Below are positions 3,001-43,858 of a DNA stretch of 64,000 nucleotides, piece after piece. The position numbers and the translations under genes were made by a program. The notes beneath the pieces are model-generated. The model was not told where the DNA came from. It saw only the letters and a list, made by a program, of their open reading frames with translations, and did no database searches. The stretch is from Reichenbachiella sp. 5M10. Lineage in GTDB: Bacteria; Bacteroidota; Bacteroidia; Cytophagales; Cyclobacteriaceae. Each line of letters begins with the position of its first letter. Positions within the stretch are counted from its first letter, which is position 1. The DNA lies in contig NZ_MDGR01000007.1 of assembly GCF_002742335.1 (NCBI RefSeq), positions 248,001 through 312,000 on the forward strand, in the 5' to 3' direction.

Positions 3001-6000
3001 GCACACTGATTAGTTCCAATGTGGCAGTCAAAATGAAGACTACTTTGGGGTTTGTGGAGAATTCGAGTGGGGATAGGCAAGCCAAAGAGACCTCTATTAT
3101 ATCATTTACCGAGGGGGTCAAACTCAATACTTCTAAAGAAAACAAAAACACTGGGGCCGGGAGTGATTTATTTGTGGGTAATGCTTTAAATATATTCTAT
3201 TCTCCCAGTTATAATCTTGATATTATCCCTCTAGACTCTTGTGGAGGGGTCAATGAGTGTTATGCGAATAGTTTTGTTGTTAACAGTGAAGAGTATGCTT
3301 TTGCTAGGTCAAAATCTATTTCTTTTAACCTTCAAGAATCGACGCTTTTTTATTACACACAGAGACAAATCGAACAGCTCATTGCTGACCTTGAAAAGGA
3401 TCTGGTAGCCGTATCTGACCCTGATGATCAAAATAGATTGAAAAATCAGATTAGGATTTGGAAGTCCGCAATTGCCCAGAATGAATATGATAAACTGGTA
3501 GCGAAGTATTTTGCCTCTCGAAATGATAGCGATTATAGGAAGGAAAATATATCGTTTGGGTACGGTTCTAACATTGAAAAATCCTATGAACTCGGAGTGA
3601 CCAATGATTTTGGGTACAGTCAGCAGTATAGTTGGTACACAGCATTTGATTTTCATTCGGACTTTTCTTTTTTCGGAGCTTATACAGATATCAATTTTCA
3701 AATAGGCAATGCCGTATATGTAGAAACAGGAAATAGCTCTGAGCAGAGTAGTACCCAAGCCACCACCATCCATCTTCAGGATGATGATCCAGGCGATCAA
3801 TATTCAGTTGATGTGATTTTGAGTGGTGCTAATTATGATACAGATAGTGCAGTGATCAGTATGAATGATCTATATTCTAGATTTGATCAAGGTGTGGCGG
3901 CTGTGCCTGCTAGTGCGGGTAGTATCAATGACGTTGACGGAGAGTTTCATTATGTGAAACCTGATACTACAGACTATATCAATCCCGTGTTTATCACCAA
4001 AGGGGGGCGAACCTCTTGTCCATATGAGCCTGAGGAGAAGGCTAGGTATTTGGAGTTTTTAAGACCAGAATTATTGGATGATCTACAATCAAAAGGAATA
4101 ATTGGAGGGTACTTAGAACATCCTGTCGACGATAACCGATTCGTAATAGAAAATAGCTCGTCGGAGGATTATGTTTTAAACTACGGTACTTTCCAGCGAG
4201 ATCAGCCTGGCTTTAGGATTGAGCCACGTGTGCAGAGAGGGATTCCTTGGAGTCTAAACGACCGGGCTACTTTTGATATCATTCTTGAAAACAAGAATGC
4301 AGAAGACACGGTCCGTACCTATAATCTCGTGGTGGATCAGCGAACTACAGGTGCTGGGCCAACGATGAGATTGGATGGAGAGCGATTCATCAAAGGGACG
4401 CCCATCGCCCTATATGGAGGAGAGCAACTGACCAAGTCGATTACTCTCAGGCCCGTCGAAGATGTCTATGACTATGAAGACATCGTCGTTTATCTAGTCG
4501 CGGGGTGTCAGTTTGACTTTGGTCAGGATTTGGATTTTCAGGAGGACATCTATGCCCGAGACACGCTATCGGTTTATTTTGACCCCTCGTGTCCAATAGC
4601 TACTGTGATCTCACCTACCCCTGGATGGATAGTCAACAATCAAGTAGACTCGAAGGTCCAAGTCGAGATTCAGGAGCAGAGCTTCTATTTTGCCAATCAT
4701 GAGAAAATTAAACTTCAGTTCAAAGCAACGTATCAGACCGATGAGGATTGGGTAGATGCCGCTGTATGGAGTAGAGATGTTGATGAGGTAGCCGAGCAGA
4801 GAGCAATAGGGGAAAATTATTTCGATTTCCCGATAGACAACAATTACATCGTGTATGATTGGGATACAGAGGAGTACAATCTGCCAGATGGTGGGTATCA
4901 GCTTCGGTGGCAATACATGTGTACCAACGGGTTGGAGTCCTACTCCAATCTCATCAATGGGACTCTGGACCGTACGAGTCCTCATGCCTTTGGGCGACCC
5001 TCCCCCGCGGATGGTGTATTGTCGCCCAATGACGAAATCATACTGACACTGAATGAACCGATAGAGGCGGGGTTGGTCGATAGGGATTTTATCCAAGTCA
5101 CGGGTAAGATCAACGGTACAACACTAAGACACCCTACGAGTATTCGTTTTTCAGACAGTGATACGGATCAGGTAGTCATAGACCATGTTCAGCTTCAGAA
5201 TACGGCGATCACTGCAGAGATGTGGGTGAGACGTGACGAAGAGTTTGCTCATAGAGAGCAGGAACTTTTGCATCATGGTGACGCGACGACTACTGACCTG
5301 AGTTTAAAACTGCTTGCCGATGGTCGTCTTCAGTTAACTTTGGGGACGTTTGATGTGACCTCTGATGCACCCGTTTCGTTGGATGTTTGGTCACATGTGG
5401 CTTTCAGTATCGACCCGATTGAGAACAAAGCTGCGCTCTATTACAATGCCGAGCTGGTCGGTTTCAACGAGACTTTCGTTGCGACACATTTTGCTGCGAC
5501 ACCTTTAGTGTTGGGCGGAGAGGGAGCTACTTCATTTACGGGAAATGTCCATGAATTGAGACTCTGGGGTCAGTATATGTTGTCTACAGACATAGCGTCT
5601 AATTTTTACAGAGACCTGTCTGGGCGTGAAATAGGGCTATTGGGGTATTGGCCGCTCAACGAAGGGCGTGGCGCATTGTCGGAAGACAGAGTGCTGGCCA
5701 GGCATGCTGCGATCCACGCAGATTGGTGGTCTGAACCTACTTCGCTTGCTTATGATTTTGATGGAACCAATCCGGTCACACTCGCATCTCAGGCTTTTGA
5801 TGATGACGAGGACTTCTCTTTGGAGTTTTGGTTCAAAACCGCCAACACCAGTACCGCCGATACCATGACGCTCGTGAGCAATGGCAATGTCACTGGTCTG
5901 GACTGGGAAATTGCCATTACTCCTCTGGGGCAGATTATATTGACTCATGACAATTCCTTTTTTGTACTTGTAGGACAGTCGGTACTGGATCAACAATGGC

Positions 6001-28719: not shown

Positions 28720-30267
28720 TTAGGCGTTCGTCAAGCGAACGGCAGCTTTTTCTTGAATGATGTTTTGTACAGGACGGTTCTCGATTTTGGACTCGAGCCA
28801 TGAGATGATGTCAAAATACAAGAAGGCCCGTTTTTCGTAAGGGTCTGTAGAGAGTACGAGGAGGTTGTCACGCAGGGTTTCGAAGCGTTTTTTCAGTTCT
28901 TGTTCCGTAATGTTGGTCTTCAAGCGTGCTAGGAAGTTGAGGATGTATTTTTGAAACTGGTGTAGGTCTTCTTTTTTGAGGAGAAAGCGGTAGGTGGATC
29001 GGACGTAGTACTCAATCAATTCCATGTTGCCTAGTTCATAGTGACTGATTAGGTTGACGATCCTTGCAAACCCGTGAATGTCCTCGCGCAAATCTACTTC
29101 GTGCGAATTGATGATTTTATTGAGCCAGTTGATGGCTGTTTTGTGGTCATCATTGCCGAAGTATAGACAAGCAGTTTTGAAATACATAATCACTCGTGAG
29201 TGTGGGTCGAGTTGCAGTGCAAATTGGTCGATTCCAGGCATGATGCGGTCCATGAGGTTGACGCCACGTCGAAAGTCACCTTTCATAAACAAGCGGTTGA
29301 ACTCATGGACGAAAGTGTACTTTTGGAGCTTTAGCTTGATGTTTTCGTTGAGGTAGGCCGAAGGGAGTGTGTAGAGTGCTCGTAGTTCGCGTGTCGTGTT
29401 TTGAAATTCACGGTATTTGAGTAGTTTATTTTGAGCGATCAAGAGGTAATTGAGACTCGAGATATAGGTTTCTAGCCTAGATTGTATCAGCGCTTTTTGT
29501 CCCGAAAATAAATGGACTAGTCGCTTGGCATATTGGTAGCCTTTCTCGAAATCTTGGATAAAAAAATAGTACCCGATATATAGATTGTAGAGACCGATTT
29601 TTTCACTCACCGAAAAAGTAGCTTCTTCAAAAAGCGGTAGATTGGTGTTGAATACAGTGTTGATTTCTTTATAGTCGCTTTCGTTGCGAATGAAACCAAT
29701 CTTTTTGTACATCGCTTGGAGCTTGTATTGCAGGTTCGAAAACGAGTTGATGTGATTGATACGGGTTGTGGTTTCTTCTATCTCACGAATGACCTTGTTT
29801 GTGCGTTCGAGGCTGTCTCGTACAGTGACTCGAGTGACCATCTGCTTTTCCCATTTTAGGATTTCGAGTTGCATTTCTAGGTTGTCGCTTTTGACAGCCA
29901 TTTTTTTTGCCTTTTTGATGACTTCTGCACATTGACTATAGAGACTTTTGTTGAACAGAATCTCTGCGTGATCGACCATGTCTCGAATTCGAATGTTGGG
30001 GAGTGTGCTTGAATTGTAGTCTCGCAAAGACTCGAGTACTTTGGTGTAGAGATGGGCTTTGAGGTTGGACAATTGCTGCGGTTTGATACTGGGTTCCTTT
30101 AGGAGTACCTCTTTGTCATCAAACTGCTGTTGTTTATCAATGATCGCAAATAGTCGAGCGTATTTGGCATCTTCTGTTCCCGAATTTGAGAGATTGAAAT
30201 ATCGCTTTTCACTCTTTTTGAGCGACTTGATCAAAAGAAAAAGGGAGTCGGATCTTTCTTTAGACAT
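28720..30267 (-). CDS. Hypothetical helical-repeat (TPR-like) protein
   Basis: 515 residues, no signal peptide or membrane helix, almost wholly alpha-helical and charged, with TPR-like helix pairs (for example YNLYIGYYFFIQDFEKGYQY and ARIVNLISHYELGNMELIEYY). A conserved N-terminus reads LFLLIKSLKKSEKRYF. I recognise the form as a protein common in Bacteroidota with no known function. Upstream of thiolase by ~46 bp and divergent from leuA. Confidence 0.7.
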   Translation of the reverse strand: MSKERSDSLFLLIKSLKKSEKRYFNLSNSGTEDAKYARLFAIIDKQQQFDDKEVLLKEPSIKPQQLSNLKAHLYTKVLESLRDYNSSTLPNIRIRDMVDHAEILFNKSLYSQCAEVIKKAKKMAVKSDNLEMQLEILKWEKQMVTRVTVRDSLERTNKVIREIEETTTRINHINSFSNLQYKLQAMYKKIGFIRNESDYKEINTVFNTNLPLFEEATFSVSEKIGLYNLYIGYYFFIQDFEKGYQYAKRLVHLFSGQKALIQSRLETYISSLNYLLIAQNKLLKYREFQNTTRELRALYTLPSAYLNENIKLKLQKYTFVHEFNRLFMKGDFRRGVNLMDRIMPGIDQFALQLDPHSRVIMYFKTACLYFGNDDHKTAINWLNKIINSHEVDLREDIHGFARIVNLISHYELGNMELIEYYVRSTYRFLLKKEDLHQFQKYILNFLARLKTNITEQELKKRFETLRDNLLVLSTDPYEKRAFLYFDIISWLESKIENRPVQNIIQEKAAVRLTNA

Positions 30268-30357
30268 TGTATTTAAAATTTACTGTAAATACGTTTAAAG
30301 GTGTTTATTGTTCTTTTATCTCTAGGTTAGAGATCGTAATTAAATAAAACAATGGTA

Positions 30358-30388
30358 TTTTTTAGCGATAATTCGCTAATTACTTTTG
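30358..30388 (+). promoter_or_regulatory. leuA promoter with an inverted-repeat operator in the spacer
   Basis: TACTTTTG at 30381-30388 matches the Bacteroidota -7 element TAnnTTTG exactly. A perfect 7-bp dyad TTAGCGA-taat-TCGCTAA (30362-30379) fills the spacer between it and a weak -33 (TTTT near 30358). That is the expected place for a repressor site. leuA starts at 30412. Confidence 0.55.
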
Positions 30389-30411
30389 GGAAGTAAGAAA
30401 TAGATACAGAT

Positions 30412-31569
30412 ATGGAAAATCGCATACACATATTCGATACGACCCTTAGAGATGGAGAGCAAGTGCCTGGATGCAGGTTGAATACCAAAGATAAGTTGTT
30501 GATCGCTGAAGAACTAGAGCTTTTGGGGGTTGATATTATCGAAGCAGGTTTTCCCGTTTCCAGCCCAGGGGACTTTGAATCTGTGTCTGAGATAGCCAAA
30601 TTGGTCAAGAATGCTACAGTATGTGGATTGACCCGTGCGGTACAAAAAGATATAGAGGTAGCTGCCGAAGCATTGAAGCATGCCAAATACCCGAGAATAC
30701 ATACAGGGATTGGGACATCGGATCAGCACGTGTTTACTAAAATCAAAACCACTAGAGAGGATATTCTAGTGAGAAGTAAGCAGGCGGTCAAATGGGCAAA
30801 AAAGTATGTGGAGGATGTGGAGTTCTATGCAGAGGATGCGGGACGTACCGAGAATGCCTTTTTGGCGCAAGTCGTAGAAGCGGTCATCGCAGAAGGAGCT
30901 ACAGTGATCAATATCCCAGATACGACTGGGTATTGTCTGCCAGAAGAGTATGGGGCTAAAATCAAATACCTCAAAGAAAACGTCAAAGGAATCGAGAAAG
31001 CGATTTTGTCGACACACTGTCACAACGATCTAGGTTTGGCGACTGCCAACTCTATCGCAGGTGTGCAAAATGGAGCGAGACAAATCGAATGTACCATCAA
31101 TGGAATCGGTGAGAGAGCAGGAAATACATCACTCGAAGAGGTAGTGATGATCATGCGCAAGCACAGCTGGTTGAAGAGTGATACACGTATAGATGCAAGA
31201 CGTCTCAACGCCATGAGTAGATTGGTCTCTGAGAAAATGAGAATGCCTGTGCAGCCTAACAAGGCGATCGTCGGATCCAATGCCTTTGCACACTCTTCGG
31301 GGATACACCAAGATGGGGTGATTAAGAACAGAGACAACTACGAGATCATCGATCCAGCAGAAGTAGGAGTGAACGAATCGTCCATCATCCTGACTGCTCG
31401 TAGCGGTAGAGCCGCATTGAGCTACCGATTGGAAAAAATCGGATTCAAACTGGCCAAAGAAGAGCTAGATGTGGCGTACAAACAGTTTTTGGAAGTGGCC
31501 GACAAACACAATGTGGTAGAGGAACAGCAGTTGAAAGAACTCATGAGTACGTTGGCAATCAATGCCTAA
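30412..31569 (+). CDS. leuA: 2-Isopropylmalate synthase, short form
   Basis: 385 residues. The catalytic domain is complete: [13 protein letters not shown] at the N-terminus, [29 protein letters not shown] (metal His pair) and [14 protein letters not shown], then a linker domain with SGIHQDGV. It joins acetyl-CoA and 2-oxoisovalerate in leucine synthesis. Full-length enzymes have about 510 residues with a C-terminal leucine-binding allosteric domain, which is absent here. A related HMGL-type synthase (citramalate or homocitrate) is possible, but the ilv neighbours favour LeuA. Confidence 0.85.
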
Positions 31570-31943
31570 TTTCAAGCAAAGCATCATGAATCGAAACAAA
31601 GCGAAAAAGACAGAGTCAGTATTGGGGACGAACAAAAGAAGTAGCAAAGTAAGCAACGAGGAGCTGAACAGTCGGATGTTTTTGGCGTCTAGCCAGTGTC
31701 TGGGTACGCGCAAAGGCTACTTGTATGCCTTTGGAGGAGATAGTCTTTAAGTAAGAGATATGGAGTGAAACCTCAGCAGGTGGTTTCATGGGTGGATATG
31801 TAAGAGATTGCCATTCTTCCTGAATCAAGTATTGTGAAGTAGTACGCTGCAGCGTGTGGAGTCAATAATTTTTTCAAAAACCAGACTTTTTGTTTGGAAG
31901 TGAAAATTAAAATGAGCTCTTTTGGCATTAATTAGAAGAAGAA
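31570..31943 (+). other. leuA-ilv spacer: weak small ORF, palindrome and hairpin
   Basis: This spacer holds no convincing gene. A 54-codon frame (ATG 31586 to stop 31750) gives a basic peptide (NRNKAKKTES...) with no recognisable family. A GAAACC/GGTTTC hairpin (31767-31787) has no T run. ACGCTGCAGCGT (31844-31855) is a perfect 12-bp palindrome and a possible operator. The ilv leader promoter candidate follows. Confidence 0.4.
31893..31924 (+). promoter_or_regulatory. Candidate promoter of the ilv leader
   Basis: TTTG at 31893-31896, a 20-bp spacer, then CTCTTTTG at 31917-31924, which matches the TTTG half of TAnnTTTG but not the TA. The first leader peptide starts 20 bp further on. The position is right; the match is partial. 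Confidence 0.4.
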
Positions 31944-32012
31944 ATGATAGCAATTATTGTCATAGCATTAACGATTGTAGCAGTGGTCACCGTGATCACA
32001 GGTCGGGAATGA
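31944..32012 (+). CDS. ilv leader peptide 1 (22 residues, Ile/Val/Leu-rich)
   Basis: ATG at 31944 to TGA at 32010-32012. Of 22 residues, 6 are Ile, 5 Val, 1 Leu and 3 Thr, the composition of amino-acid-responsive leader peptides such as E. coli IlvL. Ile and Val codons occur throughout (for example ATT ATT GTC ATA). The last codons and the stop form GGGAATGA, which can pair with the left arm of the terminator just downstream. The peptide itself probably has no function beyond being translated; ribosome stalling on it senses charged tRNA-Ile/Val/Leu. Confidence 0.8.
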   Translation: MIAIIVIALTIVAVVTVITGRE

Positions 32013-32053
32013 TATATCAATAATTCTAAAAAAATATTTGAAGCGTCATTCCC
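32005..32053 (+). promoter_or_regulatory. Antiterminator 1 of the ilv leader
   Basis: GGGAATGA (32005-32012, including the leader stop) is perfectly complementary to TCATTCCC (32046-32053), which is part of the terminator's left arm and loop. A ribosome at the stop codon would cover the first strand and let the terminator form. A ribosome stalled upstream would leave it free. Confidence 0.7.
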
Positions 32054-32073
32054 CCAAAGAATGACGCTTTTTT
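32041..32073 (+). terminator. ilv attenuator terminator 1
   Basis: A perfect 11-bp stem (AAGCGTCATTC at 32041-32051 with GAATGACGCTT at 32059-32069), a 7-nt loop and six T. A strong intrinsic terminator located 28 bp after leader peptide 1. Confidence 0.9.
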
Positions 32074-32095
32074 ATTGCCCAAACAACAGATAAAA

Positions 32096-32155
32096 GTGAT
32101 AACGATTATTGACATAGTAGCTATAGTCATAGTGGCCGTCGTGTATGGTTGCTGA
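32096..32155 (+). CDS. ilv leader peptide 2 (19 residues, Ile/Val-rich)
   Basis: GTG at 32096 to TGA at 32153-32155. 11 of 19 residues are Ile (6) or Val (5). Its DNA aligns with that of leader 1 (GTGATAACGATTATTGACAT against ATGATAGCAATTATTGTCAT), so the two look like a tandem duplication. It lies between terminators 1 and 2. The GTG start is inferred; no ATG is available in frame. Confidence 0.75.
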   Translation: MITIIDIVAIVIVAVVYGC

Positions 32156-32198
32156 GAGGGTGCGTATATCTAAAAATATCCGAAAGCCTTTCTCTGCA
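32150..32198 (+). promoter_or_regulatory. Antiterminator 2 of the ilv leader
   Basis: TGCTGAGAGGG (32150-32160, spanning the leader 2 stop) can pair with CCTTTCTCTGCA (32188-32198 region): 10 pairs, two of them G-U, with one T-T mismatch. The second strand includes the left arm of terminator 2. This is the same layout as antiterminator 1. Confidence 0.55.
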
Positions 32199-32216
32199 TA
32201 GTGAAGGGCTTTTTTT
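32183..32216 (+). terminator. ilv attenuator terminator 2
   Basis: A 10-bp stem (AAAGCCTTTC at 32183-32192 with GAAGGGCTTT at 32203-32212, one G-U pair), a 10-nt loop and a run of seven T. It ends 37 bp before the ilvE start. Confidence 0.85.
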
Positions 32217-32253
32217 ATGTCAATGGGATTTTAACTTTAAAAGAGATTAGACG

Positions 32254-33144
32254 ATGTATTACAACGAAAATTCGATTCTTTACCTAGACGGCCAGTGGCT
32301 CAAGGCTTCTGAGGCGAAAGTCAATTTGTATAGCCAGACCATGCATCATGGCAATGGAGTGTTCGAAGGAATACGGTCATACGGGAGTGCTGCAGGACCA
32401 AACATCTTCAAGGCGAAGGAGCACTTTGAACGATTGAAGTTTTCGGCAGAGCGAATGGCAATTAAGTTTCCCTACTCGGTGGACGAACTCGTCAAGATCT
32501 CTTATGAGCTGATAGAAAAGAATAACTTAGAGAATGCCTATATCCGACCGTTGATTTATCTGGGAGCGAACATGAAGCTCATCACCTGTGGTGAGACACA
32601 TATCATGATGGCGGCTTGGGAGTGGCCTCCATACCTTGGAGACGAGTCACTCAAAGTGATGATTTCATCCTACCAGCGTCCAAACCCAAAGTCAATTCCG
32701 ATCGAAGCGAAGGTGACAGGCAACTATACCAACTCCATCCTGGCTACCAATGAAGCCAAGCGAGAGGGATACGACGAAGCGTTGTTGTTGGATTCGGACG
32801 GCTATGTATCTGAGGGATCTGGACAGAATTTTTTCTTCGTCAAAGACGGTGTGATCTATACGCCACCATTGGGAAACATCCTGCCGGGTATCACGAGAGC
32901 AACGATCATTGAGTATGCCATGGAGCTTGGCTATCCTGTCGTGGAGAAGCTGTTCGTGCCAGAGGATATGAGAGGAGGAGAGGTAGCGTTTTTTACAGGT
33001 ACGGCGACAGAAATTGCCAGTATCTCCTCAATAGATGATATCGAATTCAAAAAAGATTGGAAAGAGACAGTGGCCTATGAGCTGTTTCAAATGTATAGAT
33101 CCAGAGTCACCAACGAAGAGTTGAGTGAATCGGCAGTAGGATAA
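32254..33144 (+). CDS. ilvE: Branched-chain amino acid aminotransferase
   Basis: 296 residues, fold-type IV aminotransferase. PLP lysine K153 lies in IEAKVTGNYTNS; also GVFEGIRSYGS near residue 40, EALLLDSDGYVSEGSGQNFF and PGITRATII. It carries out the last step to Ile, Val and Leu and the first step of their breakdown. First structural gene behind the two attenuators and linked to ilvD by a 31-bp gap, so the whole operon is expected to respond to branched-chain amino acid supply. Confidence 0.93.
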   Translation: MYYNENSILYLDGQWLKASEAKVNLYSQTMHHGNGVFEGIRSYGSAAGPNIFKAKEHFERLKFSAERMAIKFPYSVDELVKISYELIEKNNLENAYIRPLIYLGANMKLITCGETHIMMAAWEWPPYLGDESLKVMISSYQRPNPKSIPIEAKVTGNYTNSILATNEAKREGYDEALLLDSDGYVSEGSGQNFFFVKDGVIYTPPLGNILPGITRATIIEYAMELGYPVVEKLFVPEDMRGGEVAFFTGTATEIASISSIDDIEFKKDWKETVAYELFQMYRSRVTNEELSESAVG

Positions 33145-33175
33145 GAGTAGAAGATTAGAAATTATTAGAATATAA

Positions 33176-34846
33176 ATGGAACTTAACAAACACAGTAAGA
33201 CGATCACGCAAGATCCTTCGCAACCTGGTTCACAGGCACAATTGTACGCGACTGGATTGACAGAAGCCGACATGAGCAAAGCACAAGTGGGTATAGTCAG
33301 TACCGGTTTTGAAGGAAACCCATGTAACATGCACCTCAATATTTTGGCTCACCAAGTCAAAAAAGGGGTCAAAGAAGCTGATCTAGTCGGTTTGATTTTC
33401 CATACTATAGGAGTCTCCGACGGGATATCCAATGGTACAGTAGGGATGAAATATTCATTGGTGTCTCGTGACATTATCGCAGATTCCATCGAGACAGTGG
33501 TCAATGCACAGTTTTACGATGCAGTAGTTCCAGTCGTAGGGTGTGACAAGAACATGCCTGGTGCTATCATGGCTTTGGGACGATTGAACAGACCGGGACT
33601 CATGGTCTACGGCGGCTCGGTCAAGCCTGGGAAATGGAAAGGTGAAGACCTCAACATTGTATCGGCTTTCGAGGCGTATGGCCAAAAACTAGGAAATAAT
33701 ATTTCTGACGAGGATTTCAAAGGAATTATCAAAAATGCAATCCCAGGTCCAGGGGCATGTGGAGGGATGTACACCGCGAATACACTGGCGTCTGCTATTG
33801 AGGCGATGGGTATGAGTTTGCCTTCTTCTTCTTCCAATCCTGCCGAAAGCGAGGACAAGAAGCAAGAGACCTATAGAGTAGGGCAGGCGGTGAGACATTT
33901 GCTGACCGAGGATATTCGTCCGAGCGACATCATGACCAAAGAGGCGTTCGAAAATGCGATTCGGTTGGTGATGATTACAGGAGGCTCTACCAATGCAGTG
34001 CTTCACTTGATCGCCATGGCCAAATCTGTCGATGTGCCGATCGGATTGGATGACTTCCAAAGATTGTCAGATAGTACGCCGTTCTTGGCAGATCTGAAGC
34101 CAAGTGGAAAGTACCTCATGGAGGATCTTCACAACGTGGGAGGTATCCCAGGTGTGATGAAAGTCTTGTTGAAAGAAGGATATCTACACGGTGATTGTAT
34201 GACTGTGACGGGTAAGACTTTGGCACAAAACATAGAAGAAGGACCTTCTTTGAAAGCGAAGCAGGATGTGATTCACTCCTTTGGAGATCCGATCAAAAAG
34301 TCGGGACACTTGCAGATTCTGTATGGAAACCTCGCACCGACTGGTGCGGTAGCGAAGATTACAGGCAAAGAAGGCGAGTACTTCGAAGGGCCAGCGAGAT
34401 GCTACGACGATGAGTTTGCGGCGATCAAAGGAATCGGCGAAGAGGTGCAAAAAGGAGAAGTGATTGTGATCCGATACTCTGGACCAAAAGGTGGGCCAGG
34501 GATGCCAGAAATGCTCAAGCCTACAGGTGCTGTGATGGGCGCAGGGTTAGGTAAAGACGTGGCATTGATTACAGACGGTCGATTCTCTGGTGGTTCGCAT
34601 GGTTTCGTGGTGGGACACATCACTCCAGAAGCGCAAGAAGGTGGGCCGCTAGGGTTGGTGAAAGATGGAGACATCATCGCCATCGATGCGGTCAACAACA
34701 AACTCGAACTGAAGATCAGTGACGAGGAGATGGAGAAAAGAAAGAAAGAATGGGTACAGCCTCCATACAAAGCAACCAAAGGCATACTCAAGAAATATAT
34801 CAATCAAGTAAAGTCTGCATCCGAAGGGTGTGTGACCGACGAATAA
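33176..34846 (+). CDS. ilvD: Dihydroxy-acid dehydratase
   Basis: 556 residues of the IlvD/Edd family, iron-sulfur dependent. Cluster cysteines appear in [20 protein letters not shown] and [15 protein letters not shown]. The C-terminal half has [19 protein letters not shown] and TDGRFSGG. It makes 2-oxoisovalerate and 2-oxo-3-methylvalerate. Second gene of the operon; the next gene begins 12 bp downstream. Confidence 0.95.
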
Positions 34847-34858
34847 ATATTAGGAGAA

Positions 34859-36592
34859 ATGGAGACTTCTACATTAGAACAAGAAAAGAAAGCTATGGCC
34901 AAAACCGAAAGAATGACTGGCTCTGAGGCACTCCTCAGATGTCTACTCGAGGAGGATGTCGATACCATATTTGGCTATCCAGGTGGAGCCATCATGCCGA
35001 TCTATGACTTGCTATACAAGTACATGGACAGACTCAATCACATACTCGTACGTCACGAGCAGGGTGCCGCGCATGCCGCACAGGGTTATGCTCGTGTCAA
35101 TGGCAAAACAGGTGTCTGCTTTGCGACTTCTGGGCCAGGTGCAACCAACTTGATCACAGGGATCGCGGATGCACAGATCGACTCTACGCCGATGGTATGT
35201 ATCACCGGGCAGGTCGCTTCGCACTTGCTGGGGACGGATGCTTTTCAGGAGACAGATGTCGTGGGCATCTCTATGCCTGTCACCAAGTGGAATATACAGG
35301 TGACCAAAGCATCGGAGATTCCTGAGGCGGTGGCCAAGGCCTTTTATATCGCCAATACGGGCCGTCCAGGTCCGGTATTGATCGATATCACCAAGGATGC
35401 ACAGTTTGAGGAGTTTGATTTTTCTTATCAGAAATGTGAAAGAATCCGTAGCTATCACCCGTATCCAATTTTGGATGAGTCCAAAGTAGATGCTGCGGCC
35501 AAACTGATCGATGAGGCGAAGAAACCGATGATCCTCGTAGGACATGGTGTCATCATCTCACAGGCACAGCGTGAGCTTTTGGCATTCGCCGAAAAAACGG
35601 GCATACCGATGGCATCTACGCTGCTGGGACTGTCAGCCGTACCTACTGCTCACCCATTGTACATGGGCTACCTCGGGATGCACGGCAACTACGGCCCCAA
35701 CGTCAAGACCAACGAATGTGATCTTTTGATTGCAATCGGGATGCGATTCGATGACAGGGTGACAGGAGATTTGAATACCTATGCCAAGCAGGCCAAGGTG
35801 ATACATATCGAGATCGATCCAGCGGAAGTAGACAAGAACGTGAAGACAGAAGTCGCGATCGTATCGGATGCCAAAGCGGCATTGTTGAACTTGGTGCCGA
35901 AAGTAAAAGAGAACAAGCACGAGTCATGGATTGAAGAGTTCAAGGTTTGTGACAAGATGGAGTATGACAAGGTCATCGAGGGTGATTTTTTCCCGAAGGG
36001 AGAAGAACTCAAAATGTCTGAAGTGATCAAAGCGATCTCTGACAAGACAGAAGGAAAAGCTATCCTCGTCACAGACGTAGGGCAGCACCAGATGATTGCG
36101 ACGAGATACTACGAGTTTAGCGATACGAGATTGAACGTGACCTCTGGCGGTTTAGGAACCATGGGCTTTGCTCTGCCAGCGGCGATGGGAGCCAAGATGG
36201 GACGACCTGAGAAGGAGGTCATCGCGGTGATTGGGGACGGTGGATTCCAGATGACAATTCAGGAGCTGGGTACGATCTTCCAGAGCAAGATCGGGGTGAA
36301 GATTTTGATCTTGAATAACAACTTCCTCGGCATGGTGCGTCAGTGGCAGCAGTTGTTTTTTGACAGTCGATACTCGTTTACTGAGATGGTCAATCCGGAT
36401 TTTCAGAAGATCTCCGAAGGCTATGGTATCCCGTGCAACCGTGTCGACAAACGAGAAAATCTCGACGATGCGCTCAAGACGTTCTTGGATCACGAAGGTC
36501 CTTATTTGCTCGAAGTGATGGTAGAGAAAGAAGGAAATGTATTCCCAATGGTTCCAACTGGAGCTTCGGTTTCGGAAATGAGGTTGGACTAA
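34859..36592 (+). CDS. ilvB: Acetolactate synthase, large (catalytic) subunit
   Basis: 577 residues, ThDP-dependent. The N-terminal domain has [12 protein letters not shown] and the catalytic Glu in [15 protein letters not shown]; the middle FAD domain has ITGQV and TDAFQETD; the C-terminal ThDP motif runs from [12 protein letters not shown] to [12 protein letters not shown]. It forms acetolactate and acetohydroxybutyrate. The gene for the small subunit follows 14 bp downstream. A second methionine at codon 13 ([11 protein letters not shown]) is a possible start. Confidence 0.95.
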
Positions 36593-36606
36593 AAAATTAG
36601 ATTAAA

Positions 36607-37161
36607 GTGGATAAGCAACATACATTATCGGTACTGACCGAAGATAAAGCAGGTTTGTTGAATCAAATCACGATCATCTTTACGAGAAGGAAGATCAATA
36701 TAGACAGTTTGAACGTGTCTTCTACGGAGGTGGCAGGTATCAGCCGATTCACCATCGTGGTAACGTGTACGCAGGACGAAGCAGAAAAAACCGTCAAGCA
36801 AATTCGCAAGATTGTGGATGTATTGGGGGCCTTTTTGTACAACGAGGATCAGATCTATTACCAAGAGATCGCTCTATATAAGGTGCCTACCTCGGTGTTT
36901 TTGAACGGTCAAAGTATCGAGAAGCTCGTCCGTGAAAACGGTGCACGGATTTTGGTGATCGAAGAGGATCATATCATCTTAGAGAAGACAGGACTCAAGG
37001 ACGAAACACACGATCTATACGAAAAACTCGTGCCATTAGGGCTTTTGGAGTTTGTGCGTTCGGGGCGTGTGGCACTTTCTAAGTCCAAGCGTAAGACGGA
37101 GGAGTACATCAAGGAACTAGAGAACTCCAAAGAGAATCTGTTGGACATCCGAAATTTTTAA
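36607..37161 (+). CDS. ilvN: Acetolactate synthase, small (regulatory) subunit
   Basis: 184 residues from a GTG. The N-terminal ACT domain (LSVLTEDKAGLLNQITIIFTRRKINIDSLN) is the valine-binding part of IlvH/IlvN. The C-terminal domain (~80-160) is the typical second half, followed by a short charged tail. It makes the synthase sensitive to feedback. Confidence 0.93.
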   Translation: MDKQHTLSVLTEDKAGLLNQITIIFTRRKINIDSLNVSSTEVAGISRFTIVVTCTQDEAEKTVKQIRKIVDVLGAFLYNEDQIYYQEIALYKVPTSVFLNGQSIEKLVRENGARILVIEEDHIILEKTGLKDETHDLYEKLVPLGLLEFVRSGRVALSKSKRKTEEYIKELENSKENLLDIRNF

Positions 37162-37177
37162 GAACAGACACTAGATA

Positions 37178-37223
37178 TTAGCACCTAGGCTCTTGGCGTC
37201 AAAGTCTTGAATCTAGGTGCTAA
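37178..37223. repeat. Inverted repeat in the ilvN-aminotransferase gap
   Basis: A perfect 11-bp inverted repeat, TTAGCACCTAG (37178-37188) and CTAGGTGCTAA (37213-37223), with a 24-nt loop. There is no T run, so it is not a simple terminator. It resembles palindromic intergenic repeats and may modulate mRNA stability inside the operon. Confidence 0.6.
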
Positions 37224-37242
37224 GAATCTAACATCTAATACA

Positions 37243-38577
37243 ATGAGACAAGTACTACTTCATGAGGGTTCGAGACAGCTTGACTATGAGATCAGAGATA
37301 TCGTCAAGAAAGCAGAGGCTTTGCAAGCACTCGGACAAAAAATCTATTGGGAAAACATCGGAGACCCTATCCTCAAGCATGCGGTAGTACCCGCTTGGAT
37401 CAAAGAAATCTTGACCACTCTGGTCAATGAAAACTCGACCTACGGTTACTGCCACTCCAAAGGAGAACTCGAAACACGCAAATACGTCGCGGGTAAAAAC
37501 AACGAAAAAGGCGGTGCACAAATCACTGCAGACGATGTCTTGTTTTTCAACGGGCTGGGAGATGCGATAGGCAAGCTCTACCAGTTTTTGAATCCCTACT
37601 CGCGTGTGATAGGCCCCTCGCCAGCTTACTCGACACACTCTGCATTGGAGGCGGCACACTCCAACAAGGAACCACTGACCTACAACCTTGATCCCGAGAA
37701 CAACTGGTATCCAGATTTGGCAGATCTCCGATTGAAGGTCAAATACAACCCCAACATCGTAGGGATATTGATCATCAATCCAGACAACCCAACCGGGATG
37801 GTCTATCCCGTGGAGATTTTAGAGGAGATCGTGGAGATTGCTCGGGAGTTCAACTTGTTTTTGGTGAGTGACGAAATCTATACCAACATCATCTACAATG
37901 GTGTAGAGACCAAATCTCTCGCCGAAGTACTCGGTGATGTACCTGGGATTGCCATGAAGGGGATATCCAAAGATACTCCATGGCCAGGGTCTCGGTGTGG
38001 TTGGATGGAATTCTACAACCGCAAGGTGGATGAGCAGTTCGATCAGTACTGTTCGACGCTGGAAAATGCCAAGATGGTAGAGGTATGTTCGACGACTTTG
38101 CCGCAAAAGGCATTGCCTATCATCCAAGAACATCCGAAGTTCAAGGAGTATCTGCGTGAGCGTAGAAAAGAAATTGAGGAGCGAAGTGAGATCATTTCAC
38201 AGTATCTCCATGAGATTCCTTACATCACTTTCAACAAGACCAATGGGGCGTTTTACAACACCATTGTATTCAAAGACGGATCTATCAATGACAAGCAGTT
38301 TTTGAAGATCGAGGACGAGCAAATCCAAGCCCTAGCGGAAGACTGGGTGGAGAAAATTGGAGAGCCAGACAAGCGCTTCGTCTATTACTTGCTAGCTGCC
38401 AAAGGCGTGTGTGTAGTGCCTTTGTCTTCGTTTCAGTCCGAATTGAGAGGGTTTAGAATCACGCTACTCGAAGAGAACCAAGAGGTGTTGAAGCAGACTT
38501 TTAGCAAAATCGCTGAAGCAATCTATGAGTTCTGTACCTCAGATGTCGACGAATCAGTAGAGGCAACACTGTCCTAA
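37243..38577 (+). CDS. PLP-dependent aminotransferase (aspartate/aromatic type)
   Basis: 444 residues from the ATG at 37243; an upstream TTG would place 12 non-conserved residues inside the inverted repeat. Fold-type I class I/II features include NPDNPTGMVYP, LVSDEIYTNIIYNG and the PLP lysine region GISKDTPWPGSRCGWMEFYN. Proteins of this length in Bacteroidota are annotated as aspartate or general aminotransferases. The position between ilvN and ilvA suggests a role in amino-donor supply or in aspartate/branched-chain transamination; the substrate is not proven. Confidence 0.85.
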   Translation: MRQVLLHEGSRQLDYEIRDIVKKAEALQALGQKIYWENIGDPILKHAVVPAWIKEILTTLVNENSTYGYCHSKGELETRKYVAGKNNEKGGAQITADDVLFFNGLGDAIGKLYQFLNPYSRVIGPSPAYSTHSALEAAHSNKEPLTYNLDPENNWYPDLADLRLKVKYNPNIVGILIINPDNPTGMVYPVEILEEIVEIAREFNLFLVSDEIYTNIIYNGVETKSLAEVLGDVPGIAMKGISKDTPWPGSRCGWMEFYNRKVDEQFDQYCSTLENAKMVEVCSTTLPQKALPIIQEHPKFKEYLRERRKEIEERSEIISQYLHEIPYITFNKTNGAFYNTIVFKDGSINDKQFLKIEDEQIQALAEDWVEKIGEPDKRFVYYLLAAKGVCVVPLSSFQSELRGFRITLLEENQEVLKQTFSKIAEAIYEFCTSDVDESVEATLS

Positions 38578-38580
38578 GCT

Positions 38581-39846
38581 ATGGAGTCGGCTGTCAAATC
38601 CAATAAACCTACACTGGTAGGTGTGATGAAAGCGAGCAAGGGGCTGGAAGGCGTGGCGGTGCATACTCCGCTCATGCCCAATCTTAACTACTCCGAGCGC
38701 TACGATGCGGAGGTGGAGTTCAAGCGTGAAGACCTACAGGTCGTACGTTCGTACAAGCTCCGTGGAGCTTACAACAAAATCGCAAGCCTCAGCAAGGCCC
38801 AACAAGACAATGGAATCGTCTGTGCCAGTGCCGGCAACCATGCTCAGGGCGTAGCATATTCTTGTCAGAAGCTAGGTATACGCGGCACGATATTCATGCC
38901 GAATGTCACGCCCAAGCAGAAGATCCGGCAGGTTAAGATGTTTGGCAAGGACAAGGTAGAAGTCGTACTGACAGGCGACACCTTCGATGACGCCTATAAG
39001 CAGGCGCAGCGCTATTGCGAAGAAAACCAATCGACGTTTGTACATCCGTTTGACGATCAGAAAATCATCGAAGGACAAGGAACAGTAGGACTAGAGATCG
39101 CCAATGATACTGGTGCGCCCATCGACTATTTGTTTGTACCGATCGGGGGTGGAGGTCTGGCCTCTGGCATCATCACGGTGTTCAAAGAACTGTCGCCAGC
39201 GACCAAAATCATCGGGGTAGAACCTGCTGGAGCACCGGCCATGCGTGACTCCATCGCTGCAGGGGAGAATGTGACCCTCGACGAGATCGACACTTTCGTA
39301 GATGGTGCGGCAGTGCGAGCCGTGGGGACTCAGACTTTGGAGATTTGCCAAGACGGGCTGGAGGAGATTATTCTCGTGCCAGAGGGCAAGATCTGTACGA
39401 CGATTCTACAGCTGTACAACGAGGAAGCCATCGTGGTAGAACCTGCAGGCGCCTTGACGCTGACCGCTCTGGACTTCTACAAGGAGCAGATCAAAGGCAA
39501 GCATGTCGTCTGCGTGATCAGCGGCAGCAACAACGATATCACCCGTACCGAAGAAATCAAGGAACGTTCGTTGCTCTACGAGGGGTTCAAGCATTATTTC
39601 ATCTTGCGATTTCCACAACGAGCGGGGGCACTCAAGGAGTTCGTCTCGGAGATACTATCACCAGGAGATGATATCGTGCACTTCGAATATTCGAAAAAGC
39701 ACAGCCGCGAAAAAGGACCCGCTTTGATCGGAATCGAGTTGCAAAACAAAGACAACTTACAAGGGCTGCTGGACCGCATGACTGCCAAGAATTTTGTCTA
39801 CGAGTATCTCAACGACAAGCCGGACTTGTTGCAGTATTTGGTGTAG
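38581..39846 (+). CDS. ilvA: Threonine dehydratase (biosynthetic)
   Basis: 421 residues. PLP lysine K59 in RSYKLRGAYNK, a phosphate-binding GGGGLASGI loop, and CVISGSNNDITR. The C-terminal ~80 residues (from FKHYFILRFPQRAGALKEF) are a single ACT-like regulatory domain, whereas E. coli IlvA has two. It makes 2-oxobutanoate for isoleucine from threonine. It starts 3 bp after the aminotransferase and overlaps the next gene by one base. Confidence 0.92.
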   Translation: MESAVKSNKPTLVGVMKASKGLEGVAVHTPLMPNLNYSERYDAEVEFKREDLQVVRSYKLRGAYNKIASLSKAQQDNGIVCASAGNHAQGVAYSCQKLGIRGTIFMPNVTPKQKIRQVKMFGKDKVEVVLTGDTFDDAYKQAQRYCEENQSTFVHPFDDQKIIEGQGTVGLEIANDTGAPIDYLFVPIGGGGLASGIITVFKELSPATKIIGVEPAGAPAMRDSIAAGENVTLDEIDTFVDGAAVRAVGTQTLEICQDGLEEIILVPEGKICTTILQLYNEEAIVVEPAGALTLTALDFYKEQIKGKHVVCVISGSNNDITRTEEIKERSLLYEGFKHYFILRFPQRAGALKEFVSEILSPGDDIVHFEYSKKHSREKGPALIGIELQNKDNLQGLLDRMTAKNFVYEYLNDKPDLLQYLV

Positions 39847-40484: not shown

Positions 40485-40551
40485 ATTCAACATTCCTTAT
40501 TTGATATTTTGAACATCGAATAAAGAACAAGGAATGTCGAATATTGAAGTG
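40485..40551. repeat. Palindromic repeat upstream of the S23 gene
   Basis: A ~67-bp hairpin element. Outer arms ACATTCCTT and AAGGAATGT flank an inner pair around TTTTGAACATCGAA. It is nearly identical (about three differences) to 41138-41204 on the far side of the S23 gene. Confidence 0.8.
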
Positions 40552-40572: not shown

Positions 40573-40941
40573 ATGAAGTACAATTATGATTTAGAAGAAA
40601 GACTAATTGAATTTTCGGTCTCGATCATTGATGTTGTGGACAAAATGCCTAGTTCAAAAGCAGGAAATCATTTGGCTGGGCAATTGGTTCGGTCTGGGAC
40701 TTCAGTAGCATTGAATTATGGAGAGGCTCAGGCAGGGGAATCCAGACGGGATTTTATTCATAAACTGAAAGTAGTATTGAAAGAATTGAGAGAGTCTTAT
40801 ATCAATCTTCAAATTATTAAGCGAGCCAAATTGTTTGACCACATGGAATTGATCGAAAAGATTTTGGATGAGAATAATCAGTTGATTTCAATCTTTGTAA
40901 AAAGTGTAGTCACTGCAGAAGGAAATCAGAAGATAGTGTAA
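40573..40941 (+). CDS. S23 / four-helix-bundle protein
   Basis: 122 residues, all helical. Family marks are LAGQLVRSGTSVALNYGEAQAGESRRDFIHKLKVVLKELRES and a C-terminal Leu/Ile-rich helix, as in the S23 (23S rRNA intervening-sequence) four-helix-bundle family, related in fold to the Avd proteins of diversity-generating retroelements. The function is unknown. The gene is framed by palindromic repeats, and its last ~12 codons are copied twice more downstream, which looks like a small repeat-borne element sitting between the ilv and thr operons. Confidence 0.88.
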   Translation: MKYNYDLEERLIEFSVSIIDVVDKMPSSKAGNHLAGQLVRSGTSVALNYGEAQAGESRRDFIHKLKVVLKELRESYINLQIIKRAKLFDHMELIEKILDENNQLISIFVKSVVTAEGNQKIV

Positions 40942-41333
40942 GCGATAACTTCGCCATTCACTACTCAACATTCCTTGTTCGATCTTGTTAATAACGAATG
41001 TCGAATATTGAATACAGAATATTGAATTGATCTATCGAAAGGTAGGTTGTGAAGTGATTCCACCTTCATAGCGTTGAAGTGTAGTCACTGCAGAAGGAAA
41101 TCAGAAGAAGGTGTAAGCGATAACTTCGCTATTCACTATTCAACATTCCTTGTTCGATATTTTGAACATCGAATAAAGAACAAGGAATGACGAATATTGA
41201 AGTGATTCTACTCTTCATAGCGTTGAAGTGTAGTCACAGCAGAAGGAAATCAGAAGAAGGGATAAGCGATAACTTCGCCATTCACTACTCAACATTCCTT
41301 GTTCGATATTGTTAATAATGAATATTGAAGTGT
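40903..41333. repeat. Three tandem repeat units derived from the S23 gene end
   Basis: Units start at 40903, 41078 and 41227 (175 and 149 bp, then a shortened ~107-bp copy). Each begins with AGTGTAGTCAC and the last codons of the S23 gene (VVTAEGNQK), then GCGATAACTTCGC, then the palindrome ACATTCCTTGTTCGAT or a deleted form. Only unit 1's start lies in the intact gene. This accounts for most of the gene-free stretch before thrA. Confidence 0.85.
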
Positions 41334-41355
41334 TTGTTACATACAAGAATATAAA

Positions 41356-41413: not shown

Positions 41414-43858
41414 ATGAAAGTATTAAAATTTGGAGGTACATCCGTAGGTACCCCAGACAACTTGAGAAAAGTAAAGGATATCCTAGCAGCAGGTCAGCCT
41501 GAGAAAACCGTTTGTGTGGTTTCGGCTCTAGGCGGAGTGACCAATCTGCTACACGCATGCAGCGATCTCGCAGCAGTGGGTGACGAGTCCTACGAAGCGT
41601 CGTTGGCACAGATCGAAGCGAGACACCTCGATACGATCAAGGAATTGATTCCGGTCAAGAGCCAATCGGTGACCTTTAGCAAGATCAGAATCCTGCTCAA
41701 TGATCTCGAAGACATCATGAAGGGGATTTACCTGATTCGTGAGCTTTCGCCAAAGACCTTGGACAAGGTGCTTAGCTTTGGGGAGATACTTTCATCCAAT
41801 ATCATCGTGGACTTCCTCAACGCAGAAGGGTTGAAAACCGACCTTGGTGACTCACGCGTATTGATCAAAACCGACAATATCCACAACAATGCCAACGTGG
41901 ATTTTGCCTCGACCAACAAGAACATCACAGACTATATTCCTACAGCGGCCAATTTGGTGGTTTGTCCAGGATTTGTATCGTCCAATGCAGAGGGCGTGAC
42001 AACTACCTTGGGTAGAGGAGGGTCTGACTATACAGCGGCTATTTTCGCGGCGGCCTTGGATGCAGATTCGTTTGAAATCTGGACTGACGTGAGCGGCATG
42101 ATGACTTCTGATCCGCGTCAGGTTGCAGCGGCTCATCCGATCGAGAAACTGTCGTTTCAGGAGGCACTAGAGCTCTCGCACTTTGGGGCGAAGGTGATCT
42201 ATCCACCGACGATCCAGCCCGTGTTGGACAAGAAGATTCCAATCAAAATCAAAAATACATTTGCACCGGAGGACGCGGGGACTACCATCTGCGAAGATGC
42301 CAATGGCGACAAGCAGTTCGTCAAGGGACTATCCAGCGTCAGCGATATCGCGCTGCTCAACCTGACAGGCAGTGGCATGGTCGGTGTGCCGAAGTTCTCC
42401 TTCAGATTGTTCAAAGCACTGTCAGAAGCCAAAGTTAATGTCATCATCATCACGCAGGCTTCTTCGGAGCACTCGATCTGTGTGGGCATAGACAAGAAAG
42501 ACATCGAGATATCCCAAGCAGCCATTGCGGAGGAGTTTCAGCTCGAACTGAGCCTGCGCAAAATCGACCCGCTAGAGGTCGAGACAGGCATGGCCATCGT
42601 GGCACTCGTCGGTGACAAGATGCGTGAGCACGTTGGGATCGGTGGGCAGATGTTTTCTGCACTGGGCGAAAACGGGATCAGTATCAAAGCCATCGCGCAG
42701 GGATCATCCGAAAGAAACATCACCGTGGTGCTCGAAGAGAAGCACCTCAGCAAGGCACTCAACGTCTTGCATGAGAGCTTTTTCCTATCCCAGCGCAAGC
42801 GCATGAACTTGTTCATGATCGGGATCGGCAATGTCGGCGGTACCTTCATCGAGCAAATCAAGAAGCAGTACAACTATTTGGATGAGTTCGAAAATGTCGA
42901 CCTACGTATCGTGGGGATTGCCAACAGCCGTCAGATGCTCTTCGATATAGACGGGATCGATCTCGCCGATTGGAAAGGGCAACTGGAGTCCAAAGGAGAG
43001 AAAATGGCTCCCCAGGTATTCGTAGACAAGATGGTCGAGTCGAACCTGCGCAACAGTATCTTCGTGGACAATACCGCCAATGCAGAGATTGCAGGACTCT
43101 ACGAAGGCATCTTGCGCAAGAGTATCTCGGTCGTCACGCCCAACAAGATCGCCTGTGCATCCGACTATGATACCTACGTCAACCTCAAAAGCACCGCCAG
43201 AGAATACCAGGCCAAATTCTACTACGAGACCAACGTCGGTGCAGGGCTACCTGTCTTGACGACCCTAGGGGATTTGATCAAGAGCGGGGACAAAATCCAA
43301 AAGATACAAGCCGTCCTTTCGGGTAGTTTGAACTTCATCTTCAACTCCTTCAAACCAGGGGTGAAATTCGTGGATGTGGTCAAGCAAGCGGGTGTAGAAG
43401 GCTACACCGAGCCCGATCCGAAAATCGACCTCAGCGGGGTAGACGTGATGCGCAAGATTTTGATTTTGATCCGCGAGAGTGGGTTGAAATTCGAACTGGA
43501 CGATATCGTCAGCGAATCCTTCATCCCAGCGGCCTGTATGGATACGAAAACCAACGAAGAGTTCTATGCCAGCCTAGAACAACACGACGAGGTGTTTCAG
43601 AAACTGGTGAGCGATGCAGAAGCCAAAAACTGCCGTCTCAAGGTCGTAGCGACCTTTGACAAGGGCAAAGCATCTGTGGGCTTGCAGGAGATTCCGAAAG
43701 ACCACCCGTTCTATATCTTGGAAGGAAAAGACAACATCGTACTCTTCTATACCAACCGATACCAGGATCAGCCTTTGGTGATAAAAGGCGCCGGAGCGGG
43801 TGCAGAAGTGACAGCTTCGGGTATATTTGCGGACGTAATGCGCATCGCAAATAGCTAA
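41414..43858 (+). CDS. thrA: Bifunctional aspartate kinase / homoserine dehydrogenase
   Basis: 814 residues, full ThrA layout. Kinase domain 1-~290 (KFGGTSVGT at the start, GRGGSDYTAA mid-domain). Regulatory ACT pair ~300-465 (VSDIALLNLTGSGM; VGIGGQMFSALGENGISIKAIAQGSSE). Dehydrogenase from ~470 (NAD(P) motif GIGNVGG; NKIACASDYD; YETNVGAGLPV). It catalyses the first and third steps from aspartate to homoserine, with threonine inhibition expected through the ACT domains. First gene of thrABC. Confidence 0.96.
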   Translation: MKVLKFGGTSVGTPDNLRKVKDILAAGQPEKTVCVVSALGGVTNLLHACSDLAAVGDESYEASLAQIEARHLDTIKELIPVKSQSVTFSKIRILLNDLEDIMKGIYLIRELSPKTLDKVLSFGEILSSNIIVDFLNAEGLKTDLGDSRVLIKTDNIHNNANVDFASTNKNITDYIPTAANLVVCPGFVSSNAEGVTTTLGRGGSDYTAAIFAAALDADSFEIWTDVSGMMTSDPRQVAAAHPIEKLSFQEALELSHFGAKVIYPPTIQPVLDKKIPIKIKNTFAPEDAGTTICEDANGDKQFVKGLSSVSDIALLNLTGSGMVGVPKFSFRLFKALSEAKVNVIIITQASSEHSICVGIDKKDIEISQAAIAEEFQLELSLRKIDPLEVETGMAIVALVGDKMREHVGIGGQMFSALGENGISIKAIAQGSSERNITVVLEEKHLSKALNVLHESFFLSQRKRMNLFMIGIGNVGGTFIEQIKKQYNYLDEFENVDLRIVGIANSRQMLFDIDGIDLADWKGQLESKGEKMAPQVFVDKMVESNLRNSIFVDNTANAEIAGLYEGILRKSISVVTPNKIACASDYDTYVNLKSTAREYQAKFYYETNVGAGLPVLTTLGDLIKSGDKIQKIQAVLSGSLNFIFNSFKPGVKFVDVVKQAGVEGYTEPDPKIDLSGVDVMRKILILIRESGLKFELDDIVSESFIPAACMDTKTNEEFYASLEQHDEVFQKLVSDAEAKNCRLKVVATFDKGKASVGLQEIPKDHPFYILEGKDNIVLFYTNRYQDQPLVIKGAGAGAEVTASGIFADVMRIANS

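Follow-up and report, generated by a model that had tools for sequence, protein, structure and literature searches.

Predicted tandem leader-peptide attenuators upstream of ilvE in Reichenbachiella and other Bacteroidota

INTRODUCTION

Attenuation is a textbook example of translation-transcription coupling and is usually drawn with one leader peptide and one terminator. In the genome of the marine bacterium Reichenbachiella sp. 5M10, we noticed two Ile/Val-rich leader open reading frames (ORFs), each followed by a terminator, upstream of ilvE and further ilv genes. Such an arrangement raises the question of whether one operon is governed by two attenuators in series that respond to the same signal, whether the second unit is a working one, and whether the pair is a peculiarity of this genome. 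A first-pass annotation of the sequence had read the locus as a duplicated attenuator that is unusual, particularly in Bacteroidota. Here we compare the region within the genus and across the phylum.

RESULTS

The locus and its surroundings

The window, which is the whole stretch of DNA analyzed, covers 64,000 nucleotides (nt) of contig NZ_MDGR01000007.1, and its features are listed in Table 1. The genes from ilvE to ilvA (32254-39846, in the order ilvE-ilvD-ilvB-ilvN-aminotransferase-ilvA) form a putative operon, with co-transcription proposed from spacing only. A leuA homologue sits 5' of the leaders and is present in all four named genomes searched. The window genome and seven others make up one genus group of eight Reichenbachiella genomes. 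Judged by ilvE, the nearest named relatives are Reichenbachiella agariperforans, at 98% identity and with both units upstream of its ilvE (L032/L003), and R. faecimaris, at 82%.

Table 1. Predicted features of the ilvE leader region and the genes downstream, with positions in the window
Feature	Position	Strand	Basis
Promoter-like elements, TTTG (31893-31896) and TCTTTTG (31918-31924)	31893..31924	+	resembles Bacteroidota -7 box TAnnTTTG
Leader peptide 1 (predicted), MIAIIVIALTIVAVVTVITGRE, 22 codons, 12 Ile/Leu/Val	31944..32012 (ATG 31944, TGA 32012)	+	sequence reading
Protector (1:2) hairpin, unit 1: leader folded onto its own end and the post-stop segment	31948..32028	+	fold z -3.3, covariation
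Antiterminator, unit 1: 32005-32013 with 32045-32053	32005..32053	+	conserved 9-bp core
Intrinsic terminator 1 (T1, predicted), 12-bp stem 32040-32070 and T tract	32040..32073	+	terminator scan and folding
Leader peptide 2 (predicted), (V)ITIIDIVAIVIVAVVYGC, 19 codons from GTG	32096..32155 (TGA end)	+	sequence reading
Antiterminator, unit 2: 32150-32161 with 32186-32198, core GAGA/TCTC	32150..32198	+	fold and conserved core
Intrinsic terminator 2 (T2, predicted), stem 32182-32213 and T tract	32182..32216	+	folding
ilvE, branched-chain aminotransferase, presumed first gene controlled	32254..33144	+	NF005146 and TIGR01122 above cut-off
ilvD	33176-34846	+	ORF and family match
ilvB	34859-36592	+	ORF and family match
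ilvN	36607-37161	+	ORF and family match
PLP aminotransferase	37207-38577	+	ORF and family match
ilvA	38581-39846	+	ORF and family match

Folding of the region 31925-32254 gave -81 kcal/mol (z -2.7). When both strands of the window were scanned, the ilvE pair was the single adjacent pair of Ile/Leu/Val (ILV)-rich leaders with terminators; the other hits formed no adjacent pairs, two of them lying opposite ilvB and thrA and others near 3865, 22773, and 50587. A search of positions 30000-33500 against Rfam returned seven matches, all far under their gathering scores, and the weak matches to Thr_leader, PyrR, and GibS were set aside as chance. Elsewhere in the window, a 130-nt repeat occurs in three direct copies at 40902-41355 (the second and third 85% and 78% identical to the first), 5' of a thrA homologue at 41414, and a related 68-nt family has a further copy at 40485.

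Unit 1 is conserved in all eight genomes of the genus

Unit 1, consisting of leader 1 and T1, is kept in all eight Reichenbachiella genomes, and in each of them leader 1 is open, of equal length, and has 9 to 12 branched-chain amino acid (BCAA) codons. The protector hairpin is paired in 93.3% of the alignment cells, with changes on both sides in 11 of 30 pairs; none of 500 shuffles scored as high, and controls slid along the alignment were paired at 30 to 51%. The antiterminator, GGGAATGA/TCATTCCC, has a 9-bp core that is paired at 100% in 8/8 rows, with seven pairs invariant and one compensatory, and in the window its predicted duplex reaches -16.9 kcal/mol, compared with -7.2 kcal/mol for leader 1 with terminator 2. 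The T1 stem folds at -16.2 kcal/mol (z -8.0) and is paired in 100% of the cells over eight rows, where the variation is all one-sided.

Unit 2 is kept in most of the genus, with a less conserved pairing

Leader 2 and T2 are kept in seven of the eight genomes. In the window, T2 has a stem of 11 bp plus 2 bp past a mismatch and folds at -14.9 kcal/mol (z -3.9); it was seen by folding, while a simple terminator scan listed T1 and not T2. In the seven rows, 96.6% of the T2 cells are paired, with one compensatory pair. Leader 2 carries 11 Ile, Leu, or Val residues, the start codon left out. Both frames thus agree with the first-pass annotation in coordinates, in length (22 and 19 codons), and in branched-chain residues (12 and 11). 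The strong terminators that it had described were also found, with its stem lengths of 11 and 10 bp being slightly low.

Unit 1 could be the only working unit, with unit 2 either a copy in decay or simply a back-up terminator whose ORF is incidental. Several features of unit 2 fit this reading. Leader 2 folds no better than its shuffles (z 0.09), so that no counterpart of the unit 1 protector was seen. Its start codon is GTG in the window, with ATG in three relatives. The antiterminator, TGCTGAGAGGG/CCTTTCTCTGCA, contains a T-T mismatch, and its helix appears in the fold of 32140-32200 with a z of only -0.95. Its GAGA/TCTC core is paired in 7/7 rows, but the outer three pairs are formed in three, four, and one of the seven rows, and the whole helix, 77% paired, does no better than its own shuffles. 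Finally, unit 2 is absent from one genome (G006, loci L009 and L168), in which ilvE begins about 37 nt after T1. As L009 falls inside the genus on the ilvE tree (SH-aLRT 94, not starred), loss of unit 2 is likely there.

Other features of unit 2 speak against decay. Besides the retention of T2, leader 2 is open with 9 to 12 BCAA codons in 7/7 tandem Reichenbachiella genomes, and second codon positions change least in three comparisons with L005. The predicted antiterminator duplex in the window reaches -15.7 kcal/mol, compared with -8.4 kcal/mol for leader 2 with terminator 1. The first-pass annotation had proposed complementarity between leader end and terminator arm in both units and had suggested checking covariation and leader conservation in relatives. 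The complementarity stands for unit 1, where the core is paired in 8/8 genomes, and for the GAGA/TCTC core of unit 2, and not for the outer pairs of unit 2. Likewise, the comparison with relatives bore out the protector of unit 1 and the BCAA codons of both leaders, whereas a protector of unit 2 and its outer antiterminator pairs found no such backing.

Neutral simulations, run pair by pair, predict about 6 to 10 BCAA codons, compared with the 9 to 12 counted in each of the two leaders. Under neutral substitution, 21 of 66 directional tests fell below 0.05 (1/33 forward and 20/33 reverse), which lends weak support, pair by pair, to BCAA codon retention. We also considered a specialization of the leaders for different amino acids and rejected it, since the Ile fractions (0.24 and 0.26) and Val fractions (0.15 and 0.14) of leaders 1 and 2 do not differ in 27 loci. 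Judging from their codons, both leaders would sense Ile/Val.

Spacing varies in the genus: insertions lie between T1 and leader 2 in L007 and L008 and after T2 in L006. With such insertions in some Reichenbachiella species, exact spacing seems not to be critical. We also observed that a 12-nt segment past the leader 1 stop (32013-32024) is 92% complementary to the start of leader 2 (32105-32116), a pairing that beats mononucleotide shuffles in six of seven Reichenbachiella genomes (P below 0.05). The pairing may simply follow from the resemblance of the two leaders, or it may connect one unit with the other.

Recurrence upstream of ilvE in Bacteroidota

We collected 167 ilvE loci chosen by similarity to the ilvE of the window and removed L001, three short or partial loci (L025, L027, and L046), and six duplicates. 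Of the remaining 157, the 123 whose ilvE match scored 200 bits or more were analyzed. As the sample was drawn by ilvE similarity, it is uninformative on genomes without such an ilvE, and among 247 class-level genomes, 224 lacked an ilvE match at an E value of 1e-60.

A strict detector applied to 480 nt upstream called two units in 24 of the 123 ilvE regions, one in 74, and none in 25. The corresponding numbers were 0, 1, and 368 for 369 dinucleotide shuffles and 0, 6, and 271 upstream of 277 other ORFs of at least 200 codons (loci L032 to L078), which places the tandem calls above chance. A loose detector gave 36, 74, and 13 for ilvE, 0, 25, and 344 for the shuffles, and 1, 20, and 256 for the other ORFs. 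In the Escherichia coli ilvL region, the detector found one unit. Predicted leader-peptide attenuators are thus common before this type of ilvE in Bacteroidota (98/123 regions by the strict detector), yet those in the window match no Rfam model.

Extending the strict search to 800 nt gave 32 double calls. Seven (L014, L055, L072, L077, L096, L135, and L137) were dropped because their upstream "unit" is distant and in our judgment resembles coding sequence or the terminator of a different gene; the 25 kept and three added by the loose cut only (L010, L048, and L134) make 28 curated tandem loci among the 123. The view that two in series is unusual, particularly in Bacteroidota, was therefore not upheld in this sample, given 24 strict and 28 curated cases. 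The 28 include seven from Reichenbachiella, eight from other genera with the same family code, and others under the titles Chryseobacterium, Ulvibacter, Fluviicola, Bacteroidales, and Flavobacteriales. On an ilvE tree of 122 rows (L075 was too short and left out), the tandem label requires 15 changes, below every one of 500 shuffles (mean 24.6), and at least 9 changes are forced by starred branches.

In L015, L110, and L040, at least two terminators precede ilvE with just one clear ILV-rich leader; these are perhaps tandem cases whose second leader is degenerate or senses something different. No tandem was found upstream of ilvD in 20 loci, some of them in ilvE-first operons. A plausible single ILV-rich leader with a terminator lies close 5' of ilvD in L174, L176, and L188; a second loose call lies far upstream in L176 and L188, and calls in L171, L172, and L186 were not counted.

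Most leaders are predicted to pair preferentially with their own terminator

The detector ignores antiterminator pairing, so pairing serves as an independent test of the units. Over the 28 tandem loci, the mean energy of a leader end with its own terminator arm is -15.0 kcal/mol for unit 1 and -15.7 kcal/mol for unit 2, compared with -10.1 and -10.2 kcal/mol for the cross pairings and -8.5 kcal/mol for shuffled region 2. The summed own pairing is stronger than the summed cross pairing in 28/28 loci (Wilcoxon p 7e-9, uncorrected for relatedness). The own arm is preferred by leader 1 in 25 of the 28 loci and by leader 2 in 27 of them (52/56 in all), with the neighbor's arm preferred in the other 4/56, namely by leader 1 of L010, L048, and L087 and leader 2 of L012. 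Ranked against their own shuffles, the antiterminators of 45 of 56 tandem units fall in the top 5%, with 11 outside, as do those of 61 of 76 single units.

A second unit of the same type recurs in other lineages with a strong pairing of its own, and with the conserved leader 2 codons and T2 this makes it improbable that unit 2 is a nonworking remnant in Reichenbachiella.

Promoter-like elements upstream of the pair

The -7 box of Bacteroidota is TAnnTTTG (PMC7366714 and PMC9723704). Upstream of leader 1, the window has TCTTTTG only and no TAn(n)TTTG; at the corresponding site, relatives have TATTTTG (L003), TACTTTG (L004), and TACCTTTG (L006 to L008). Of the 28 tandem loci, 18 have TAn(n)TTTG within 75 nt 5' of leader 1 and 10 do not, and just one of the 28 has it within that distance 5' of leader 2. 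Single leaders have it in 25/69 cases and control windows in 57/615. With the element found before leader 1 and hardly before leader 2, one transcript likely runs through both units, so that a single promoter 5' of leader 1 would feed both attenuators.

Origin of the pair

Parts of the sequence fit the duplication that the first-pass annotation had proposed. In four Reichenbachiella genomes tried, the two leaders resemble each other in their 5' halves more than expected from codon shuffles (P 0.001, 0, 0.03, and 0.009), and in the window the starts of both leaders share a 24-nt direct repeat, 83% identical. The picture differs for the terminator arms and stop-codon regions. Among 15 representatives, these match their counterparts at the equivalent position of other lineages more closely than those at the opposite position in 79 of 105 pairs, with 22/105 in the reverse direction and 4 ties (permutation p 0.001). 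Hence there are two arm types with an order shared across lineages, and simple local duplication explains the pair only in part. Two arm types would also limit cross-pairing between the units.

The pair could have arisen by duplication inside Reichenbachiella, with the other tandem cases being independent duplications. The leader-half similarity and the repeat favor such an origin, as do the immediate sister lineages, of which L079, L080, and L088 have one unit and L081 none called, and the number of changes forced on the tree. It is opposed by the positional match of arms and stop-codon regions and by the 14 other representatives, in which leaders of one locus are never more similar than leaders of different loci, though L045, L067, and L075 come near (2/30 as high). 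Taking these together, we consider duplication inside the genus rather unlikely, although functional convergence on an arm that overlaps the stop codon could produce the position effect.

Two histories fit: either the ordered pair is old and half of a leader was copied later, or a unit was duplicated locally and its second arm converged. We lean toward the first. In its fullest form, which we put forward tentatively and at somewhat less than even chances, two orthogonal leader-peptide attenuators in a fixed order would have preceded Bacteroidota ilvE since ancient times, with a ..CATTCC/..CTTCCC arm upstream and a CTTTCTC(AC) arm over the UGA stop downstream. Lineages would since have retained this pair, reduced it to one or the other type, or gained it anew on many occasions, and it would work as a pseudo-cooperative Ile/Val switch in which one signal acts on two multiplied gates.

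DISCUSSION

A model with two gates for one signal

The pattern of leaders, terminators, and alternative pairings, together with its conservation in the genus and its recurrence outside it, makes it highly probable that two ribosome-mediated transcription attenuators lie here in series, likely on one transcript and both presumably sensing Ile/Val. In each unit, a ribosome stalled at Ile/Val codons would leave the leader end unoccupied, so that it could form the antiterminator with the left terminator arm, and a ribosome at the stop codon would cover the leader end and allow the terminator to form. RNA polymerase would have to pass T1 before leader 2 exists, so overall read-through would be the product of two probabilities that depend on one signal; basal expression would be lower and the induction ratio larger. 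In a toy calculation in which read-through rises from 0.1 to 0.7 per unit, one unit would yield a 7-fold response and two units 49-fold, with a ceiling of 0.49. The steeper or two-step control suggested by the first-pass annotation would follow from such an arrangement. G006, a close relative with one unit, would offer a natural test when compared with the seven Reichenbachiella genomes that have two.

The leaders might act chiefly on translation, by letting ribosomes reinitiate or by masking the ilvE start, with weak terminators. In the minimum free energy fold, leader 2 does pair over a long range with a segment past T2, and this pairing beats mononucleotide shuffles in 4/7 genomes (P of about 0.05 or less), but it is no better than shuffles in 3/7. 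Two terminators with stem, T tract, and alternative arms in each of 28 tandem loci, and the 45/56 antiterminators that rank in the best 5% of shuffles, are more in keeping with attenuation of transcription, and we give a mainly translational action very little credence. Least probable of all is control by a metabolite-binding riboswitch or a protein regulator in place of ribosome stalling: nothing was found in its favor, no Rfam match in this region attains the gathering score of its family, and leaders that have coding potential and are rich in Ile/Val are seen again in other lineages.

Comparison with known systems

Attenuation in series has precedents in tandem T-box leaders, such as that of Bacillus subtilis thrZ, and in the three PyrR attenuators of pyr. 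The attenuator of the E. coli ilvXGMEDA operon (ilvL) resembles the Reichenbachiella units in having an Ile/Val-rich leader and an intrinsic terminator before ilv genes; it is a single unit, however, whereas Reichenbachiella has two in series, with another gene order and in another phylum. Among the matches listed from an open-access literature collection, there was no same-signal pair of leader-peptide transcription attenuators, although an earlier description may exist elsewhere.

Closer by phylum is Flavobacterium psychrophilum, for which one sentence reports clues of leader-peptide attenuation at amino-acid operons, but the main text of that article, in which "ilv" occurs 0 times, describes neither an ilv operon nor a tandem arrangement (PMC9723704). 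In the Salmonella mgtCBR leader, as in Reichenbachiella, two short ORFs control transcription within one leader, an arrangement of tandem attenuators that the authors call "a singular example" (PMC3641672). By their account, the mgtCBR ORFs respond to two different signals, ATP and proline, and the stems are unlike intrinsic terminators, whereas the Reichenbachiella leaders share the same amino acids and are followed by two predicted intrinsic terminators. Two leader peptides serving one gene and one inducer, erythromycin, are found in ermB, which by the title of the report is a case of translational attenuation (PMC8274638), in contrast to the transcription terminators and amino-acid codons found here.

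A parallel in logic is provided by tandem pseudo-cooperative riboswitches, in which two full switches for the same signal stand in series before one gene and a sharper response is expected. There the sensor is an RNA aptamer, while in Reichenbachiella it is proposed to be a ribosome translating a leader peptide. For tandem riboswitches with the same ligand, a review states that the steeper control expected has been confirmed for one c-di-GMP triplet (PMC9481103). If the recurrent same-signal pair before ilvE is what it appears to be, bacteria would adjust how steeply attenuation responds by placing units in series, as has been described for riboswitches (PMC9481103).
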